64,000 nucleotides of DNA from Petrimonas mucosa (GTDB taxonomy: Bacteria; Bacteroidota; Bacteroidia; Bacteroidales; Dysgonomonadaceae). The stretch lies in NCBI RefSeq assembly GCF_900095795.1, contig NZ_LT608328.1, positions 3,279,001 through 3,343,000 of the forward strand. Reading direction: 5' to 3'. Below, in pieces: positions 39,325 to 46,440 of the stretch (the first letter of the stretch is position 1; the number at the start of each line of letters is the position of its first letter). The notes below the pieces were generated by a model. The model was not told where the DNA came from, ran no database searches, and was given only the letters and a program-made list of their open reading frames with translations. The position numbers and the translations under genes are program-made.

Positions 39325-39441
39325 TTAGGATGCTCCATCCTTATGAATAACTATAACCTCTTTGGGATTGATAGTTTCTATTACTTTTTTTAGCGTAGAT
39401 TTGTCAGCATGACCGGACGTATGTATATCAATGACATTACA
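39325..39441 (-). pseudogene. 3' fragment of the beta-CASP/RNase J-like gene
   Basis: Reading the minus strand from the target duplication (39436-39441) gives VIDIHTSGHADKSTLKKVIE and then TINPKEVIVIHKDGAS before TAA at 39325. DIHTSGHA is the conserved C-terminal histidine motif of RNA-metabolising beta-CASP proteins, and INPKEVIVIH is the usual strand after it. It joins in frame to the fragment ending at 40811 when one ATTACA copy and the IS are removed. The piece has no start of its own and is separated from its message by the IS, so it is dead as it stands. Confidence 0.92.
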
Positions 39442-40810
39442 CAATAGTCCGTTAAAAATTTACTATATGAGTCATGCAGCAATGGCTGCAAACTCCACGA
39501 GTTCTTTAACAAGTTTATCATTTAATCTTCTGTTCGGTTTTATGCCAGACACGCAAATAAATCGCTCAAGCAGGTAGGCATTGTGTATCATTGTTTTACA
39601 TGATGCCATCGAAAAGGGGATGCCTTTCTCCTTTGCCAGCACCTTTGCCAGGTTTATTGAGGTAAGAGACGCATTAAAGTTGAACGATAGCTTTGCTACG
39701 TCCCTTGCCTGCGATTGCATCAGTCCTGTGAAGCCTTTGGCATCCCTGAAGCAAAACTCGATCTGAAAACGGGTGCGGTAAAATTCTATGACATCTTTTC
39801 CACTCATCTCAGGATTGGTAGAGAAGAACAGTTTTGGTTTTTTCCCATCTTTGAAATACCAGATGACAAGCCTGACCATCTGTTTAAGTGATTTGGAATA
39901 GGCTACCAAGGTGTAGAGATCACCGTTATCAATATTGATCTTTTGCACTCTGGTTGTATCCAGGTTGGCCATGTCAATCTTTCCGTCGTAGAGTTTAGGC
40001 CTGCCTTTCTTGCCTGTCGGTTTCTGCAGTGTTGGATAATAAAGTGCGGCGTCATCCCTGAAGCGGCTGACCAGATCAAACTTCATCTCTTGCAGACCCG
40101 TAACGAAGTTGTTCTTTGCGAAGTAGGCATCGGCAACCACGTGACGGCTTGCCCGATGGAGTTTCTCCCGCATCGATTTAATGACCAGCAGGTACCAGTC
40201 AATCAGGTTGGCATCACGACTCTCCAGGGTTTGACGGTCCGGAGTCTGAACGGCCTGTAGACTGATGCAATCCTTGTTGTCGACGTCTATAAGGCCCACT
40301 CCCAGGATTTCCAATCCTCTTTTCGCCTGACCGGCTGCACCCGACCAGAAGTAACCAATCCAAGGGGTATTCTTTCCTGATTTGGATATATAACTGGGAT
40401 CAATGGCAATTGCCTTGCGATCTCCGGTTAATACCCTATCAGACAAAGACAAGTTAAACTCCAGCCAATCAAAATCCTTCGAGAAGTTCTGGCGAAATCG
40501 CTGTTCACACGACTTGCCATATCTCCCCAATTGTAGGAAATTAATCCTGCCGGGAATGACCAGATACAAAATAAGCGTCTCCATAAGGAATGATTTGAAA
40601 CTTTTGTTTAACTTCGTAGTTAGTTCACCTAGAACATCACTACAGATACCTTTATATTGGTTAAGTATGCTGGTTCTATCCATCTTTATTAGGTTTTGAT
40701 TAGCTATAAAGATACTGATAATCAGCTACTTAACCATCTTTTTTATGTTAAACTATGTTATGTAAATCATTGAATTTTAATTGGTTAATTGAATATTTAC
40801 CGAAGTATTA
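39442..40810 (-). mobile_element. IS4-superfamily insertion sequence inside the beta-CASP gene
   Basis: The 1369-bp element has imperfect terminal repeats (CAATAGTCCGTTAAAAATT and, inverted, TAATACTTCGGTAAATATT). It is flanked by a perfect 6-bp duplication ATTACA (39436-39441 and 40811-40816). Removing the element and one duplication restores the beta-CASP reading frame. Confidence 0.92.
39472..40683 (-). CDS. DDE transposase of the inserted IS4-type element
   Basis: The 403-residue protein has an RNase H-like core with Asp in AIAIDPSYISKSG (near 94), Asp in HVVADAYFAKNNF (near 188) and Glu in FYRTRFQIEFCFRDAKGF (near 315), the Y-R-E-K pattern of IS4-like enzymes. The frame is intact, and its element still has both ends and a target duplication, so it may be active. 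The leader (40684-40810) contains a TATCTTTA -7-like box but, unlike the IS1595, IS1380 and IS256 elements here, no long start-codon inverted repeat. The family assignment below the IS4 superfamily is uncertain. Confidence 0.88.
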   Translation of the reverse strand: MDRTSILNQYKGICSDVLGELTTKLNKSFKSFLMETLILYLVIPGRINFLQLGRYGKSCEQRFRQNFSKDFDWLEFNLSLSDRVLTGDRKAIAIDPSYISKSGKNTPWIGYFWSGAAGQAKRGLEILGVGLIDVDNKDCISLQAVQTPDRQTLESRDANLIDWYLLVIKSMREKLHRASRHVVADAYFAKNNFVTGLQEMKFDLVSRFRDDAALYYPTLQKPTGKKGRPKLYDGKIDMANLDTTRVQKINIDNGDLYTLVAYSKSLKQMVRLVIWYFKDGKKPKLFFSTNPEMSGKDVIEFYRTRFQIEFCFRDAKGFTGLMQSQARDVAKLSFNFNASLTSINLAKVLAKEKGIPFSMASCKTMIHNAYLLERFICVSGIKPNRRLNDKLVKELVEFAAIAA

Positions 40811-41956
40811 ATTACAGAAAAGTTCACGAAAATTCTTATAACCAGGATTTGCAGCTACTTGTTCAGGAATAGTATAGTAACCCTCCCAAGACGAGTAAAC
40901 CAGAAGTGTCTCTTCAATGGGCAGCTCTTTGGTGAGTTCTTCAACACGAGATATTTGAGATGTCCCGGCAATAAGAACAAAACCTTTCTTTTTGATTCTC
41001 TCCAATCCATTAAACCGTAGCATACGGGGAGAGAAACTAAATAACCCATGAGATAGTTCCGATTCCCGCTCTGTGAAAAACTTCATAGTCGATGACATGA
41101 ATTTTGAGCATACATATAGTGTTTTCTTAGCTTCTAAAGCTGCATTTTTGATAGAAGCCAATCTTTCTATGTCTGTAGCTGAAGCCAATACAAAAACATA
41201 CTTGAATGATTTCATCACATTGGCCATCTTTTCCGACACTTTACATTCATGGATGCATTCATCATTTCGACTCAACATTGTACCTTCCGTGATAAGGGTA
41301 TCAATGTTTGTAGCATACTTCCTTAATGTTGGTATCAACCCTTTGCCCATATAACCATGTGCTCTATAGTCACCTGTATGCCAAATGCGTTTCCCATCAG
41401 CCTCAATGAGAAACATGTGTGAATCATAAATGGAATGGCAATTAAAGAAGGGAGTAATTGTGATATCTCCAATGGAAATAGAATATGGTTTCTTGCGAGG
41501 AGGGGTCCTACCCCATGAGTTCATCTTTGTAATTATCTTAATCTTTTTTTCTGCATTTGATTTTTGAACGATTACTTCCTCTATGTGTTCTTTTGTTGAA
41601 TTTGCATCATTCTGTAATTGTTCAAGACTAAGTTCAACTCCTTCTTTTAGTGTTCTATATTTTATAAGCAAAAGTTCCTTTGTACCATCACTCATATATT
41701 GTGGAACACAGGTAGGTATATATTCGAACAATCCTACATGATCTTCATGACCATGAGTATAGAACACTGCTTCATGCATTTTAGCATTAGTGGCAAAGAT
41801 GTTTTCCACCATTAACCTATCTTGTTCTGGTGTTGTAGGTTCACCATTGCCTGGTAAGTTCTGTCCAAAATCTATAAAGACTCGTGAAGTTGCAGTACTG
41901 ATTTCTGTTATGCAACCTCCTATTTGTTCTAATCCTCTATGTACCTTTATGTCCAT
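40811..41956 (-). pseudogene. Beta-CASP metallo-beta-lactamase (RNase J-like) protein, 5' part, interrupted by IS
   Basis: The first 382 residues carry the metallo-beta-lactamase motifs: FIDFGQN (Asp near 29), the metal box THGHEDH (His68, His70, Asp72, His73), NCHSIYDSH (third motif) and HTGDYR (Asp of motif 4). The beta-CASP part shows VLASATDIERL. The frame then runs into the IS after ELFCN. With the 36-residue 3' piece (39325-39435) the original protein had 418 residues and the full beta-CASP set, including HTSGHA. Members are 5'-3' exoribonucleases or endonucleases for RNA. Its ATG shares one base with the sigma-like stop (TAATG), so translation was coupled. Confidence 0.92.
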
Positions 41957-42243
41957 TATTCGAGATTATTTGATTTTTCAATTTCCTTTTCAATACTCTG
42001 TCTTACCCACCAAATAGCATAGGGGATGAATTTAAAACCGCGACTTTCATCAAAATTTTCAGCAGCTAACACCAAGCCTTTATTACCTGCTTCTATCAGT
42101 TCATCCATAGACAGATTATTGTTGGCGTACCTCTTGGCTACAGCAGTCACAAATCCAGTCACAAATCGTAGTCTGGATTGTGCAAGCTTTTCAATAGCAG
42201 TATTTCTTTCTTTTCCTCCTTGCTGAATAGACTTTATTATCTG
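41956..42243 (-). pseudogene. Sigma-70 region 2-only protein, 3' part
   Basis: This frame resumes after the IS4-type element and encodes residues 31-125. It contains GGKERNTAIEKLAQSRLRFV, the start of region 2, then YANNNLSMDELIEAGNKGLV, ENFDESRGFKFIPYAIWWVR and a stop after EIEKSNNLE. These are classical sigma-70 region 2.1-2.3 motifs, including the WWVRQSI stretch used in promoter melting. The protein ends at the border of region 2.4, so it has no region 3 or region 4. It cannot be an ordinary sigma factor; core-RNA-polymerase binding without -35 recognition is the natural inference. Confidence 0.92.
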
Positions 42244-43737
42244 TCAGTACTGACCGACTAAAAAATGAAGAAAATATAGGGACTTAACCGAAGTCTCGTC
42301 CCTAAGTTGTAAATTTGGATTGTCAAAAACTAAATTTCCAACCATGGGCAAAGTTAGCGAAAATAAATTTGTCGGTCAGCCGATCTTAAGACAAATAGTG
42401 AATATTCTCCCGAGGGAAAAGTTCGATGAGCTGGTAATAAGGCTCGGCAGTGATAAATATTACAAGGCGTTTTTTTCCTGGGATCAATTGATCGTGATGC
42501 TCTTTGGCATTTTTTCCCGTTGCGATTCGATGGGTGAAGTCTGTGACGGCATGCGTGCCTTGGGTGGCAAGTTGAATTACCTGGGCATGGAGAGTTCGCC
42601 TGCAAAAAGCACTGCCGGAGATGCATTGCGTGACAGGGACGAGGAGCTGTTCCGTCTGTTCTACTTTGCACTGATCGCCCATTTTTCCCCGCTTTTATCG
42701 GTCAGCCGCAAAAAAAAGTGCCGGAAGCAGGGTGTCAGTTTCGAGGAGTTCTATGCCTTTGATTCGAGTACGGTGACGCTGTTTTCCGACGTGATGAAAG
42801 GCGTGGGCCGGAACCCTAAAGGCGACGGGAAAAAGAAAGGCGGCCTGAAAGTCCACATGCTGACCGACGTCCATGCTGACACGCCGCGATTCGTGAAGAT
42901 AAGCGAGGCGAAAATGCACGACAAGAACTTCTTGCAATACCTGAATTTAAGTGAAGGCAGCATGGTGGTCTTCGACAAGGCATACAATTACTACCTGCAG
43001 TTCGCCAAATGGACGCGACAAGGCGTGAATTTCGTTTGTCGGCTGAAAGACAATGCAAGGTACGAGGTTCAGGAAGTCCTTCACGAGAAGAAGCTGGAAA
43101 AAGGGGAACATGCCGTTTACAAGGTGAAACATATCCACGTTCAATATATCGAGAAGGTCGAGACGGGGACCGAAGGCAAGAAAAAAAGGAAGAAAGTCAG
43201 ACAGACGAGGACATTATGCCTTCGTTTAGTTTGGTACAGGGATGAACAGGGGCGTAAATACAAGTTCATCACCAATAATTGGGAAATAACAGACGAGGAA
43301 GTTGCCTTGATTTATAAAAATAGGTGGTCTATCGAAACGGGATTCAAAAAATTGAAGCAAAACTTCCAACTCACCTATTTTTATTCCGACACTGAAAACG
43401 GGATAAAGACCCAAGTATGGTGTACCCTGATCGCGTATTTGCTTTTACAGGTGATTCAGACCAAGTCGGAAAGCGAAAAGGCGTTTTCAACCATAGCCGC
43501 GTTGTTGAGGATGCATTTGATAAGCCATCTGGATTTGACGTGGGTGGTGACCGAAGGCAGGCGCACTTATCCCAGACGACTGAAAAGTCGCAATAAAAGT
43601 CCCACGGCCGCCCAATTATCACTGTTTTGAGGGGGGGAGCACTTTTTGGGAATGAAAGACAGGAGCTGTAATGGTTTACTTGTCAGGTATTTAAAAATAA
43701 GAACCGATTGATTTTGATTTTAGTCGGTTGATACTGA
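42244..43737 (+). mobile_element. IS4-type insertion sequence inside the sigma-like gene (complete)
   Basis: The 1494-bp element has the terminal repeats TCAGTACTGACCGACTAAAA and, inverted, TCAGTATCAACCGACTAAAA. It is flanked by a perfect 7-bp duplication TTATCTG (42237-42243 and 43738-43744). Removing it with one duplication restores the sigma-like reading frame. A truncated copy lies at 35636-36095. Confidence 0.95.
42344..43630 (+). CDS. IS4-family transposase
   Basis: I choose the ATG at 42344 (MGKVSENKFVGQPILRQIVN, 428 aa); a TTG eight codons upstream is also open. The catalytic residues are Asp in YAFDSSTVTLFSD (near 145), Asp in MVVFDKAYNYY (near 208) and Glu in YKNRWSIETGFKKLKQNF (near 325), the IS4 Y-R-E-K arrangement. 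A DUF4372-like N-terminal domain (about 10-80) precedes the core. The element has both inverted repeats and a target duplication, so it probably moved recently. The -7 box TAAATTTG (42310-42317) precedes the start. Confidence 0.93.
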   Translation: MGKVSENKFVGQPILRQIVNILPREKFDELVIRLGSDKYYKAFFSWDQLIVMLFGIFSRCDSMGEVCDGMRALGGKLNYLGMESSPAKSTAGDALRDRDEELFRLFYFALIAHFSPLLSVSRKKKCRKQGVSFEEFYAFDSSTVTLFSDVMKGVGRNPKGDGKKKGGLKVHMLTDVHADTPRFVKISEAKMHDKNFLQYLNLSEGSMVVFDKAYNYYLQFAKWTRQGVNFVCRLKDNARYEVQEVLHEKKLEKGEHAVYKVKHIHVQYIEKVETGTEGKKKRKKVRQTRTLCLRLVWYRDEQGRKYKFITNNWEITDEEVALIYKNRWSIETGFKKLKQNFQLTYFYSDTENGIKTQVWCTLIAYLLLQVIQTKSESEKAFSTIAALLRMHLISHLDLTWVVTEGRRTYPRRLKSRNKSPTAAQLSLF

Positions 43738-43744
43738 TTATCTG

Positions 43745-43834
43745 TAATTCCTCCTCAATAGAATAGCGAGCCACTGTATCTACTTCTTGTTCTTTTACTC
43801 CATTCATTTTGATAATCATTGCTTTCTTTTCCAT
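43745..43834 (-). pseudogene. Sigma-70 region 2-only protein, 5' part
   Basis: The ATG at 43834 opens MEKKAMIIKMNGVKEQEVDT and VARYSIEEEL (30 codons). The frame then enters the IS4-type element. It continues in frame at 42243 with QIIKSIQQGGKERN. SIEEELQIIKSIQQGG is the usual region 1.2 entry of sigma-70 proteins. The joined gene has 125 residues and overlaps the beta-CASP start. No strong promoter is seen directly upstream, which fits an operon led by the nuclease-like gene at 45613-46440. Confidence 0.9.
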
Positions 43835-43878
43835 ATATACGTTCTTTAAAATATTACTCTATACCTTAAAAATCTCAT

Positions 43879-44001
43879 TTAAAATTCCCAACTCAAGTTA
43901 ATAGTTTTCAAAGCGGAATTTCTCTTTTTTTTCGAGAGATACCGTTTTATTTTCTTTTCATCTTCACTGTTTCTTGCACGTTTAACGTGTTGATTTACTT
44001 T
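43879..44001 (-). other. 40-codon open frame between IS1380 element and sigma-like gene
   Basis: The frame reads KVNQHVKRARNSEDEKKIKR and then YLSKKKRNSALKTINLSWEF before TAA. It has no start codon and begins right after a TAA near the end of the IS1380-family element. The very basic composition could be the 3' end of a gene broken by that IS, or chance. I list it because it fills the 283-nt gap between the IS1380 transposase and the sigma-like start. Confidence 0.25.
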
Positions 44002-44117
44002 TTATGGTGGCGTTTTTATATGTATTAACATTACCACTCTTCCAAGGCATGGCAATTCCTTGTCATAAACCCTTTTACGACACGAAAGATGGCGATGGAC
44101 GATTAAGTGAAAATCCG

Positions 44118-45446
44118 TCATCCGGTCATCGTTGTCGTTATTCGCTGCTCAAAATCACGCCACCCCGCTTTTCGGTAATACTCCTTTGGCATTTTTACCG
44201 TGACCTGCCTGCCGGATTTCACCACTTTTCCCGGCACTCGGATAAACCATTCTCGGAAGGTAGAGTGCTCTTGACGCCAAACCCAAAAGTCGCCCCGGTA
44301 TCGCATGAGCACCGATAAACTGTAGGCAAATGACGAAAGTTGCCAAAGAATATCGTTTACCCAAAAATCATGCGTGATGGTTTTTCCCGCACAAAGCGAG
44401 TTTTTGGTTTGCTCGATCCAATTCTCACTCTCTGATCGGGATCCATAAAGGGTATGGAGCTGCAAGGCATCCAATCCTTTCAGGTTCGAGCAATAGCAAA
44501 AGTACTCATACTCGGGTACAAATTGTTTTTCGCCAAAATAATCGACTTCAACCATTTGCTTTATGATGCGCACGGCATAAAACATGCGGGGATTCCTCCA
44601 ACCGCTACATTGATGTGTAAACTGACAGGTCGCCGTCCGTGGGCCAATCGGCTGCCAAGTCTGCCCGGCAAGTAAATCTTTCAGGTTTTTCAGCTTTACT
44701 TTCACCAAATATTCATGTTTACCGTCTTCTAACAAATTAAATAATCCACCATTGAAAAAACCGCTGTCGGCCCTGAAAAACACCTTCTCCACCTTTTGGG
44801 GAAGAGCGGCCAAGGTTTCTTTGACAAACTCACAAACTCCGTTTGAGGTGTAAGCTGAACCCGGGCGGAGCCATGAATTGACAAGCAGTTTCATCTCCGT
44901 GACAAAACATAAGATGGGGTGATAGCTTTTCGAACCCTTCTTATGCGAGTTATAACCCACCTCAGCCCCTTGTTGGTTGCCGTAAACGGTAAATGTGCTT
45001 GAGTCGCAATCAAGTGTCAAGCGGCTTAAACCGCAACGGGAAACTTGCATGCCTGTAAAACCCAACAACAGCTCGTGAAGCGAACGGGCGCCCCTTTCAC
45101 CCAAACCTGTCAAATGGCGGCGTATGGTGTCCTCGTCAATGTTCTTGGGTAACTTCAACAAGCGGGCAACCAAGGCGTCAAAGGTGAAGTTTTCAATCCG
45201 CTTCAAACGGTGAACACCGCACAACGATGCCAACAGGATACTTGAGAGTATTTGGGCTGTGCTGAAACGGCTTGCATTGTGGCGGATGGTTGGAAAAAGA
45301 TGTTCCAGCTTGCCATAAATACCGCAATGGTTGATAAAATCAGAGGTTACGCTTAACCCTGAATATGATGTTAATTGTTCTGAACTGAACTTTTTCTTTA
45401 CTGAACAGGCAGTAAATGAGATTTTTTTACTATTTTTGTCTTGCAT
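44118..45446 (-). CDS. IS1380-family transposase
   Basis: The 442-residue protein shows the IS1380 pattern. The N-terminal part contains FINHCGIYGKLEHLFPTIRH and SSILLASLCGVHRL. First Asp is in RLTLDCDSSTFTVYGNQQGA (near 165), second Asp in KVFFRADSGFFNGGLF (near 240), and Glu in SESENWIEQTKNSL (near 358). The frame is intact. The start codon lies inside the 3' arm of a 15-bp inverted repeat. The protein is clearly different from the second IS1380-family transposase at 59449, so two separate elements of the family are present. Confidence 0.92.
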   Translation of the reverse strand: MQDKNSKKISFTACSVKKKFSSEQLTSYSGLSVTSDFINHCGIYGKLEHLFPTIRHNASRFSTAQILSSILLASLCGVHRLKRIENFTFDALVARLLKLPKNIDEDTIRRHLTGLGERGARSLHELLLGFTGMQVSRCGLSRLTLDCDSSTFTVYGNQQGAEVGYNSHKKGSKSYHPILCFVTEMKLLVNSWLRPGSAYTSNGVCEFVKETLAALPQKVEKVFFRADSGFFNGGLFNLLEDGKHEYLVKVKLKNLKDLLAGQTWQPIGPRTATCQFTHQCSGWRNPRMFYAVRIIKQMVEVDYFGEKQFVPEYEYFCYCSNLKGLDALQLHTLYGSRSESENWIEQTKNSLCAGKTITHDFWVNDILWQLSSFAYSLSVLMRYRGDFWVWRQEHSTFREWFIRVPGKVVKSGRQVTVKMPKEYYRKAGWRDFEQRITTTMTG

Positions 45447-45511
45447 GTGTCGGGTGAATGTTTGTTTTTGTATAACACTTTAAAGATAAATACTTTACCT
45501 GACATATGCAA
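45441..45511 (-). promoter_or_regulatory. Promoter and start-codon-sequestering inverted repeat of the IS1380 transposase
   Basis: ACCTGACATATGCAA (45497-45511) pairs with TTGCATGTGTCGGGT (45441-45455) over 15 bp with two G-U pairs. The ATG (45444-45446) lies within the downstream arm. On the minus strand TTG (45511-45509), a 20-nt spacer and TATCTTTA (45488-45481) form a promoter. A transcript starting there lacks the upstream arm and leaves the ATG free, while read-through RNA would contain both arms. Confidence 0.75.
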
Positions 45512-45612
45512 CTTTTATTTGAGACTTTTAGGTATACTATTATACGAAAAGAAAAGAAAAGAAAAAAATAGAGTAAATCGCCACAGGGTATGCAAAAACT
45601 TTGCACACAGCG

Positions 45613-46440
45613 CTAAAAATCTGATTTTATAGAAAACTTGACATCCTCCTTAAGTAGAATTTCTCGCAATCTTCGACGGTGTTCATCTCTACCTTTTGTA
45701 TTCTTTTCCCAGCTATCGAATATCAATAATTCGGGAATAGGATTGATACATACTGGTCGAGACTCAGGAACAGGTAATTCTAATGATTTCTTTATGTCAT
45801 ATAACTTCTGATAGTATTCAAGAAGTTGAGAAGAGTATTTTTCAATAAACTGCTTGTATCTATTCATCTGATATACGACCTCTGGAGTTGCATCAGTTTC
45901 ATGAAGCATTCTGTTATCTCTCATTCGCTTTAGCTCAACAAATGTGATCATACCGTCAGAGCATTTTACTAAATCCATCCTATTGTTTGTTTCTCCATCA
46001 ATATATGCAAACTCTGAATCAAGATGATACAGGCGAGATTGTACTATTAATGTTCCTTGGATGTACTTTTCCGACCATTTTTCTTTGGGAACTACACCAT
46101 CGACACTGCTTTTTTGAGAATAATGAGTTTTTATTCTATCTAACACATCATCCAAACAAGAGTCAATAAAATCACTACACTCAATATACAAGCTACTCTT
46201 TGAAGGAGCAGGAAGCCCCAAGTATTTATGATGCGTAAAGACTTGCAGTTTCTTATGTTTGCTACAGTAGTGTATTCGGGCAATGCTTCCACCTTCAAAG
46301 TAAACATTCACCTGATTATCTTTTCTCACTTCTATGTATAATGAAGAGTCTTCCTTAAATTGTTTCCACCAATGTGGATTATTATTTAGTTCATGGAAAA
46401 TTCTTGCATCTGGTTTTAATGTATCAAATGTTACTGCCAT
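45613..46440 (-). CDS. PD-(D/E)XK nuclease-like protein (Cas4/RecB-type motifs)
   Basis: The 275-residue protein is not a family I can name. Residues 154-172 read NRMDLVKCSDGMITFVELK, giving Asp156 and Glu169-Leu-Lys171, the PD-(D/E)XK metal site. Gln191 and Tyr195 (VVYQMNRYKQFIE) form the QxxxY motif seen after the active site in RecB and Cas4 nucleases. The N-terminal 110 residues form a separate beta-rich domain (SLYIEVRKDNQVNVYFEGG). It is the first recognisable gene of the minus-strand operon leading to the sigma-like and beta-CASP genes. Its C terminus (KFSIKSDF) is close to the IS1380 element, so the last few residues may be altered. Confidence 0.75.
   Translation of the reverse strand: MAVTFDTLKPDARIFHELNNNPHWWKQFKEDSSLYIEVRKDNQVNVYFEGGSIARIHYCSKHKKLQVFTHHKYLGLPAPSKSSLYIECSDFIDSCLDDVLDRIKTHYSQKSSVDGVVPKEKWSEKYIQGTLIVQSRLYHLDSEFAYIDGETNNRMDLVKCSDGMITFVELKRMRDNRMLHETDATPEVVYQMNRYKQFIEKYSSQLLEYYQKLYDIKKSLELPVPESRPVCINPIPELLIFDSWEKNTKGRDEHRRRLREILLKEDVKFSIKSDF

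Follow-up and report, generated by a model that had tools for sequence, protein, structure and literature searches.

Genes and insertion sequences at the locus

The locus described here lies in a 64,000-nucleotide stretch of the Petrimonas mucosa genome (contig NZ_LT608328.1, positions 3,279,001 to 3,343,000; hereafter the window) and comprises, in minus-strand order, NUC, encoding a PD-(D/E)XK nuclease-like protein, SIG (41956-43834), encoding a protein that stops after sigma-70 region 2, and BC (39325-41956), encoding a beta-CASP protein. Together the genes form an operon that is split by three insertion sequences (Table 1). Joining the flanks at the TTATCTG and ATTACA duplications gave single frames of 125 amino acids for SIG and 418 amino acids for BC, as the original prediction, made from the letters alone, had proposed, and the predicted TAATG overlap is present, the SIG stop and the BC start sharing one base. 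The restored BC aligned with an uninterrupted homologue, at the locus termed L078 below, over 418 codons with 93% amino acid identity, and SIG did so over 121 codons with 88% identity; the alignment of BC with its L079 homologue likewise spanned 418 codons. The blocks of homologous DNA shared by the window and L078 start and stop no more than a few bases from where the insertions begin and end, and the joins are therefore not due to chance. Both of the insertions claimed originally were recovered, while the third, in the NUC-SIG gap, had been missed; its termini read CCTTAAAAATCTC and CCTAAAAGTCTC, and the corresponding gap in L078 is 101 bp. The long open reading frames (ORFs) within the three insertions are, on a reading of their sequences, putative transposases. 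Further transposase-like ORFs surround the locus, and the repeated hits need not mean that loss of the operon was selected, as had been suggested originally.

The window copy of the system is broken: BC is interrupted ahead of the HTSGHA motif, and the break in SIG lies upstream of region 2. This BC, in its two pieces, is the sole BC in the genome at E<=1e-10.

Table 1. Features of the divided operon (window coordinates)
Feature	Position	Strand	Basis
NUC, 275-aa PD-(D/E)XK nuclease-like protein, intact	45613..46440	-	Invariant motifs, AlphaFold model, Foldseek
Third insertion sequence, in the NUC-SIG gap; 442-aa transposase-like ORF	43864..45532	-	TATA at both borders
SIG 5' part, upstream of the insertion; start codon 43832-43834	43738..43834	-	Joined frame
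Insertion sequence within SIG; 436-aa transposase-like ORF	42244..43737	+	TTATCTG duplications at 42237 and 43738
SIG 3' part with sigma-70 region 2; its stop and the BC start overlap by one base	41956..42243	-	Pfam, RpoD HMM
BC 5' part, with HxHxDH	40811..41956	-	Joined frame, Pfam
Insertion sequence within BC; 403-aa transposase-like ORF	39442..40810	-	ATTACA duplications at 39436 and 40811
BC 3' part, with HTSGHA and the last conserved His; stop 39325-39327	39325..39441	-	Stop residues as in L078

Uninterrupted relatives and transfer between genomes

Relatives were sought by scanning named genomes with 15 aligned BC sequences, which gave at least 586 stretches, at least 564 of them confirmed, and the best 80 were kept; L-numbers denote loci. 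An uninterrupted NUC-SIG-BC trio was found in L078, from a Bacteroidaceae metagenome-assembled genome (MAG), and in L079, from a Muribaculaceae MAG, with SIG and BC sharing one base in both, and a sigma-like gene also overlaps BC in L091. The co-occurrence elsewhere on which the original claim of a unit had turned is thus observed, and the three genes are a real unit. The NUC and BC proteins of L078 and L079 are 91-93% identical to those of the window, whereas host DnaE from the same genomes is only 60-63% identical in long pieces (71% in a 59-residue end piece), a contrast that shows horizontal transfer. Both loci have a WYL gene, NUC, SIG and BC, but the gene between WYL and NUC differs (237 versus 283 amino acids), revealing an exchangeable slot; L081 and L082 likewise carry different genes in this slot.

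The distribution is patchy. Among 199 genomes of the window's relatives, the window's own included, BC was present in 15 and NUC in six. Relatives of BC were also found in 14 plasmid records (22-34% identity) and in two phage records, from Enterococcus, with 21% identity; in viral contigs, 17 candidate stretches were followed up and none was confirmed as a BC relative.

The beta-CASP protein

The predicted beta-CASP protein was borne out. BC scores 32 bits against the RMMBL family (PF07521; cut-off 21.6) and carries HxHxDH together with, in the joined frame, HTSGHA. Across 15 aligned sequences H68, H70, H174, D196, H391 and H413, among the metal ligands, are invariant and D72 and H73 nearly so. 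By family knowledge BC is probably a nuclease. It fails the RNase J family cut-off (TIGR00649, 54.6 bits where 400 are needed), and its best solved relatives by sequence are RNase J1 (3zq4, E 1e-8) and EF2904 (2az4, E 4e-8), the latter entry in PDB carrying only the name 'hypothetical protein EF2904'. BC stops after the same residues in the window and in L078, and truncation of its 3' end by the adjoining insertion sequence is thereby ruled out.

In one locus (L104:5841-8210) the BC frame continues, by eye, into an ADP-ribosylglycohydrolase-like part; in L103, a close relative, BC is overlapped by a following gene that is separate from it. The long L104 frame was not counted as a partner fusion in the census below because its extra part is C-terminal.

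A PD-(D/E)XK-type protein is the usual partner of BC

Residues E143, D156-x12-E169-x-K171 and Q191xxxY195 of NUC do not vary across 11 aligned sequences, the window's included, so that the D-(12)-ExK and QxxxY motifs described originally in an intact 275-residue protein hold up. The AlphaFold model (pLDDT 89.9, pTM 0.87) has elements H124-134, E139-148, E151-161, E164-172 and H187-201, which fit an alpha-beta-beta-beta-alpha core. The first three Foldseek rows were Card1 and Cdn1, with a best E of 7e-3, and the first 50 included Card1, Cdn1, Can2, Shedu, McrC, Cas4 and a Hachiman structure besides unrelated proteins; no row reached E<0.001. In Pfam, HSDR_N was matched below its cut-off (E 0.029). 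The original label 'Cas4/RecB-like' is sustained at the level of the PD-(D/E)XK superfamily and not for Cas4 itself, as the 11 aligned sequences hold no invariant cysteine of the kind expected for the Cas4 Fe-S cluster. NUC is probably a PD-(D/E)XK nuclease, again by family knowledge.

Partners of BC were counted in 95 BC loci (15 from the window's relatives and 80 from the named genomes), 89 of which have at least 900 bp upstream. A member of a partner family lies within three ORFs of BC on the same strand in 70/89 loci and directly upstream in 56/89; among these 56, 54 overlap BC or leave a gap of at most 20 bp, and 26 overlap it by exactly 4 nt. The bare D-ExK pattern occurs in 264 of 582 ORFs and was therefore dropped from the counts: loci with a partner by bare motif only (12/89) were left uncounted, and seven of the 89 had no partner either way. 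One of these seven is L145 (L145:5014-7158, a Marinilabiliaceae MAG), in which a PD-(D/E)XK-like part with D...ELK...QAIAY, the last matching QxxxY, is fused ahead of BC in a 714-residue frame; Pfam names the BC part only.

NUC and the P325 group form one superfamily (hhalign 98.9%). The comparison of the NUC and P297 profiles was not significant (probability 7.2), and these two are therefore joined only by the active-site pattern and by weak fold matches: P297 has an invariant D...ELK, and its model weakly matches McrC, VC1899 and BspD6I2 amid crotonase-fold rows. One member each of P297 and P325 gave no match in PADLOC. The PD-(D/E)XK-type/beta-CASP pair, found together in Bacteroidales and Clostridia and fused in one genome, offers a two-enzyme module, unrecognized by PADLOC, that could be put to experiment; it also provides a possible context for EF2904-type proteins, whose structure is known.

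A sigma protein reduced to region 2

The restored SIG matches Sigma70_r2 (PF04542) at E 7e-13 over residues 61-120 and an RpoD hidden Markov model (HMM) at E 7e-27; no Pfam match for sigma regions 3 or 4 was found, in agreement with the predicted sigma-70 protein that lacks both. The frame likewise stops after region 2, with no region 4, in the window and in L078, L079, L095, L207 and L208. Both the core of the fold and, in region 2.3, the aromatic KFxxYAxWW stretch are retained in SIG. The region 2.2 patch, which takes part in core RNA polymerase binding, departs from RpoD at several residues in the mini-sigmas. At 42140-42185 the window copy carries a 12-bp tandem duplication (GFVT) that is absent from L078 and L079.

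For the window, L078 and L079 pairs, SIG omega was 0.22-0.35 by NG86 (test of omega<1, p 0.0004-0.007) and 0.28-0.58 by YN00, while NUC and BC gave 0.13-0.15 (NG86); the YN00 values indicate that constraint on SIG is weaker than that on NUC and BC. Judged by these codon comparisons, SIG is under purifying selection. The region-2-only genes of L207 and L208 (106 amino acids) gave omega 0.14 (p 4e-8) against each other, and 0.18-0.19 against L078 and L079, to which they are 51-56% identical at a dS of about 2, near saturation. That SIG is debris of gene decay is ruled out in general by omega values under 1, though the window copy is broken. Of 65 phage records matching SIG, all below 60% identity, 26 cover at least 80% of it.

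Truncated sigma and DnaE proteins in related loci

The ORFs called in the loci were searched with HMMs of RpoD and DnaE built from the relatives' genomes. Sigma-like proteins were detected in 10 of the 80 named-genome loci, nine of them truncated; the tenth, a second RpoD in L093, is full length and shares 76% identity with the query RpoD, in a genome that has another. Regions 2 and 4 are retained in L138, L084, L085, L081, L082 and L091, and region 2 alone in L078, L079 and L095. In a sigma tree, to be read with a long-branch warning, three groups stand apart (window, L078, L079, L081, L082 and L091; L084 and L085; L095 and L138), from which truncation to region 2 alone may have occurred at least twice. 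Compact sigma-like ORFs of 229-249 amino acids that adjoin neither BC nor WYL were seen at L194, L195 and L196, in two Prevotellaceae genomes.

DnaE-like proteins (E<0.001) were found in 20/80 loci with the DnaE HMM and in 28/80 when an HMM of the derived family P170 was added, eight loci reaching the threshold by the latter only; the host dnaE gene, L091_0, is excluded. The P170 family matches the DnaE palm with 99.4% probability (17 members, some themselves direct DnaE matches), and its L116 member exceeds the PF07733 cut-off. The palm and/or finger domain (PF07733 and/or PF17657) was above cut-off in all five DnaE pieces tested. Most of the proteins are truncated, L133 (709 amino acids) and L152 (1154 amino acids) being long. 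The palm motif PDIDIDF, whose Asp residues are presumably catalytic, is intact in none of 16 aligned pieces, the stretch being unaligned in four; L133, L152 and L153 have PDIDLNF. The PHP end is missing except from L133, L152 and the host gene, and all the pieces are without most of the C-terminal end; these two ends of DnaE hold the epsilon, clamp and tau contacts. In L193, from the genome of L091, host dnaE is the immediate neighbour of the cassette, and a P170-type piece separates dnaE from WYL.

Sigma-like and DnaE-like proteins share a locus in nine cases with the P170 HMM and in five by the DnaE HMM alone. As a control, eight HMMs were run on 288 ORFs from 20 stretches, each of 14 kb, in the genomes of five relatives, with no match. 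A search of 393 genomes of the order with P170 only gave matches in three genomes at E<=1e-18, all adjoining WYL. In one of them a NUC-type protein and BC come next; in the other two, L207 and L208, a further ORF and a region-2-only sigma follow, with no BC in the stretch read. These two genomes hold only 39-40-bit partial metallo-lactamase matches to BC, compared with 409 bits in the third. Note that the L207 contig ends about 360 bp past the sigma gene, and that the P170 piece of L208 is cut by the contig start. The mimics and WYL can therefore occur together in the absence of BC.

It could be that the sigma and DnaE pieces are debris, left by partial gene duplications at insertion hot spots, as the L091 cassette directly beside host dnaE and the full-length second rpoD of L093 might indicate. 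Their frames are open, however, and omega was below 1 in every computable pair (0.09-0.26 in four DnaE pairs and 0.16-0.19 in two sigma pairs; of the DnaE pairs without a usable value, three had saturated dS and one, L081/L082, was too alike), and the same pieces recur across loci of several families. Such an origin is highly improbable.

The original prediction had the sigma piece recruit the RNase to RNA polymerase. In its fuller form, SIG would bind the polymerase clamp and thereby place the nuclease where phage genes are transcribed, with the DnaE pieces acting likewise at replication forks. The retained region 2 fold core and KFxxYAxWW stretch are consistent with this, as is the contact of the sigma-like gene with BC in the window, L078, L079 and L091. 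However, several region 2.2 patch residues of the mini-sigmas differ from RpoD, and the DnaE pieces have lost the ends described above. In addition, sigma-like proteins accompany BC in only 10/80 loci, the usual partner of BC is of the PD-(D/E)XK type, and two region-2-only sigma genes have no neighbouring BC, nor any BC of comparable score in their genomes. Tethering of BC to RNA polymerase can therefore hardly be all that SIG does, and the proposal now looks quite unlikely.

Frequent neighbours of BC

Within five ORFs upstream to four downstream of BC, a WYL protein is present in 28/95 loci and a calcineurin-like phosphoesterase in 27/95. The WYL member tested contains PF13280 plus WCX and is, by family knowledge, probably a regulator. 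PADLOC has a match for WYL, and the one phosphoesterase member tested matches PDC-S10 there (8e-69), and we take a PDC to be a candidate defence gene. A check of its ORFs revealed no WYL gene, phosphoesterase or DnaE piece left in the window.

WYL is nearby in all 10 sigma-bearing loci, and one interpretation is that sigma-like proteins and WYL jointly control the cassette's own promoter, the DnaE piece being separate cargo. The retention of region 4 in L081, L082, L084, L085, L091 and L138 fits this, but the forms in the window, L078, L079, L095, L207 and L208 are without region 4, and those tested are under selection. We consider self-regulation improbable. A DNA- or RNA-processing kit of mobile elements, serving repair, maintenance or competition between elements and having no part in defence, would also account for the patchy, mobile distribution and the plasmid relatives of BC; the WYL regulator and the PDC-S10 match argue against it, and it is regarded as unlikely. 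The original suggestion of a nucleic-acid processing or phage-defence set holds in that the unit is real and that relatives have WYL and PDC-S10-like neighbours, which are consistent with defence; the defence role itself we infer.

A family of 156-177 residues, P173 (L131:4254-4772 and relatives), is present near BC in 7/95 loci; the member tested matched nothing in PHROG or PADLOC and, in Pfam, only DUF6047, weakly (E 0.079). A 170-residue protein near BC at L149:4187-4696 has a weak KaiC-type ATPase match (E 0.025) and perhaps mimics the replicative helicase; this DnaB-like candidate was left out of the counts.

A possible defence cassette with host-protein mimics

Taking the composition, gene order, linkage, mobility and selection described above, which the sequences show directly, we tentatively regard the locus as a broken copy of a horizontally moving, WYL-controlled, defence-like nuclease cassette of gut bacteria with host-protein mimics, perhaps serving as bait. 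Such a cassette would comprise one or two exchangeable PD-(D/E)XK nuclease-like proteins, with BC closely linked to one. In relatives a calcineurin-like phosphoesterase and a WYL regulator are frequent companions, and some loci add a truncated RpoD and/or DnaE/PolC mimic. WYL would hold the cassette silent; upon infection the PD-(D/E)XK protein would cut nucleic acid, and BC, with the phosphoesterase, would then degrade or trim the ends, so that the phage is harmed or the cell killed. SIG, which keeps region 2 and would not be expected to start transcription, and the DnaE pieces could be bait, capturing phage proteins that seize the host sigma factor or replicase and thereby giving a signal. 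The enzyme activities, the order of these events and the bait itself we infer. A bait role is preferred to tethering because the pieces copy two machines, because they retain a core fold and lose the ends that normally join them to their machine, and because SIG occurs without BC.

With the DnaE pieces of related loci, the mimicry seems to extend beyond a single host machine. In its strongest form the proposal is of guard-and-decoy immunity, in which non-working pieces of the primary sigma factor and the replicative polymerase, maintained by selection, stand as bait beside exchangeable PD-(D/E)XK nucleases and, in many cases, a beta-CASP enzyme, and phage takeover of the host machine is the trigger; this more specific claim is doubtful. 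Were the mimics bait, bacteria would sense a phage takeover with decoy copies of the proteins with which they themselves transcribe and replicate, and the same mimics would lead to phage proteins directed against sigma and DNA polymerase III.

Several results weigh against this interpretation. The fold matches of NUC and P297 fall below significance, the P297 list being rich in crotonase-fold rows, and some of the loci used for the partner counts had also served to seed the partner families. PADLOC gave no match for BC or for the two DnaE pieces tested, and for NUC only DUF2290 at E 0.01. The link between sigma-like and DnaE-like proteins is strong only when the P170 HMM is used (9/10 sigma loci; Fisher p 2e-4) and falls to 5/10 (p 0.11) if the DnaE HMM stands alone, and both tests are uncorrected for kinship. 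The genomes that carry such loci also hold compact sigmas elsewhere. The mimics share nucleic-acid-binding folds and so may sense nucleic acid instead. The window itself is without a DnaE piece, none of the 15 BC loci of its relatives has sigma- or DnaE-like ORFs, and 51/80 named loci have neither mimic, though some of these contigs are short; the mimics are therefore optional.

Their optional nature also bears on a further explanation, in which truncated sigma and DnaE act as dominant-negative poisons that stop host transcription and replication abortively, the nucleases being further effectors. The pieces do derive from essential host proteins and are not expected to work themselves, and WYL control suggests that something needs silencing; the altered region 2.2 patch, like the many loci with neither mimic, tells against poisoning, for which we see little likelihood. 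Bait is weakly preferred to the poison and to the regulator of the cassette's own promoter.

Comparison with known systems

BC resembles the beta-CASP ribonucleases (RNase J, aCPSF1 and EF2904, 2az4) in having the metallo-beta-lactamase core with HxHxDH, RMMBL and HTSGHA; the RNase J chains listed are longer than its 418 residues, and it is far under the RNase J cut-off. Cas14, the beta-CASP effector of type VII CRISPR, is likewise of this family and is recruited as an immune effector (PMC10910872). Cas14 occurs with Cas5/Cas7 and a Cas10-like C-terminal domain, whereas the neighbour of BC is of the PD-(D/E)XK type; the loci were not scanned for Cas genes or CRISPR arrays. NUC shares D-x12-ExK and QxxxY with Card1/Can2/Cdn1, Shedu, McrC and Cas4, with no fold match at E<0.001.

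In the MZA system a sigma-like protein, MzaA, is part of a defence operon (PMC9523054), and SIG matches MzaA region 2 at E 1e-15. The MzaA models are about 700 positions long and SIG matches only region 2; in a scan of SIG, NUC and BC, neither NUC nor BC matched any MZA model. As with the BrxR/CapW-type WYL regulators of defence loci (PMC9122601, PMC9122588), the relatives have WYL plus WCX near the operon, while the window has none. In nuclease-protease pairs (PMC12799240) a nuclease also occurs repeatedly with a second enzyme, the partner there being a trypsin-like protease and here of the PD-(D/E)XK type.

A system of this composition was not found in searches of open-licence PMC papers, and other papers may describe parts of it. 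We rate the composition as new in kind, and the mimics would stay new even if the nuclease pair had already been described. Decoy-based detection is best known from plants, and the guard-and-decoy reading is much like the integrated decoys of plant immune receptors. In BREX-related proteins, inactive nuclease domains are proposed to act as decoys that intercept phage inhibitors (PMC12839542), and among the papers considered these decoy domains are the nearest idea met; they lie inside a defence protein, whereas here the decoys would be pieces of the host sigma factor and polymerase.

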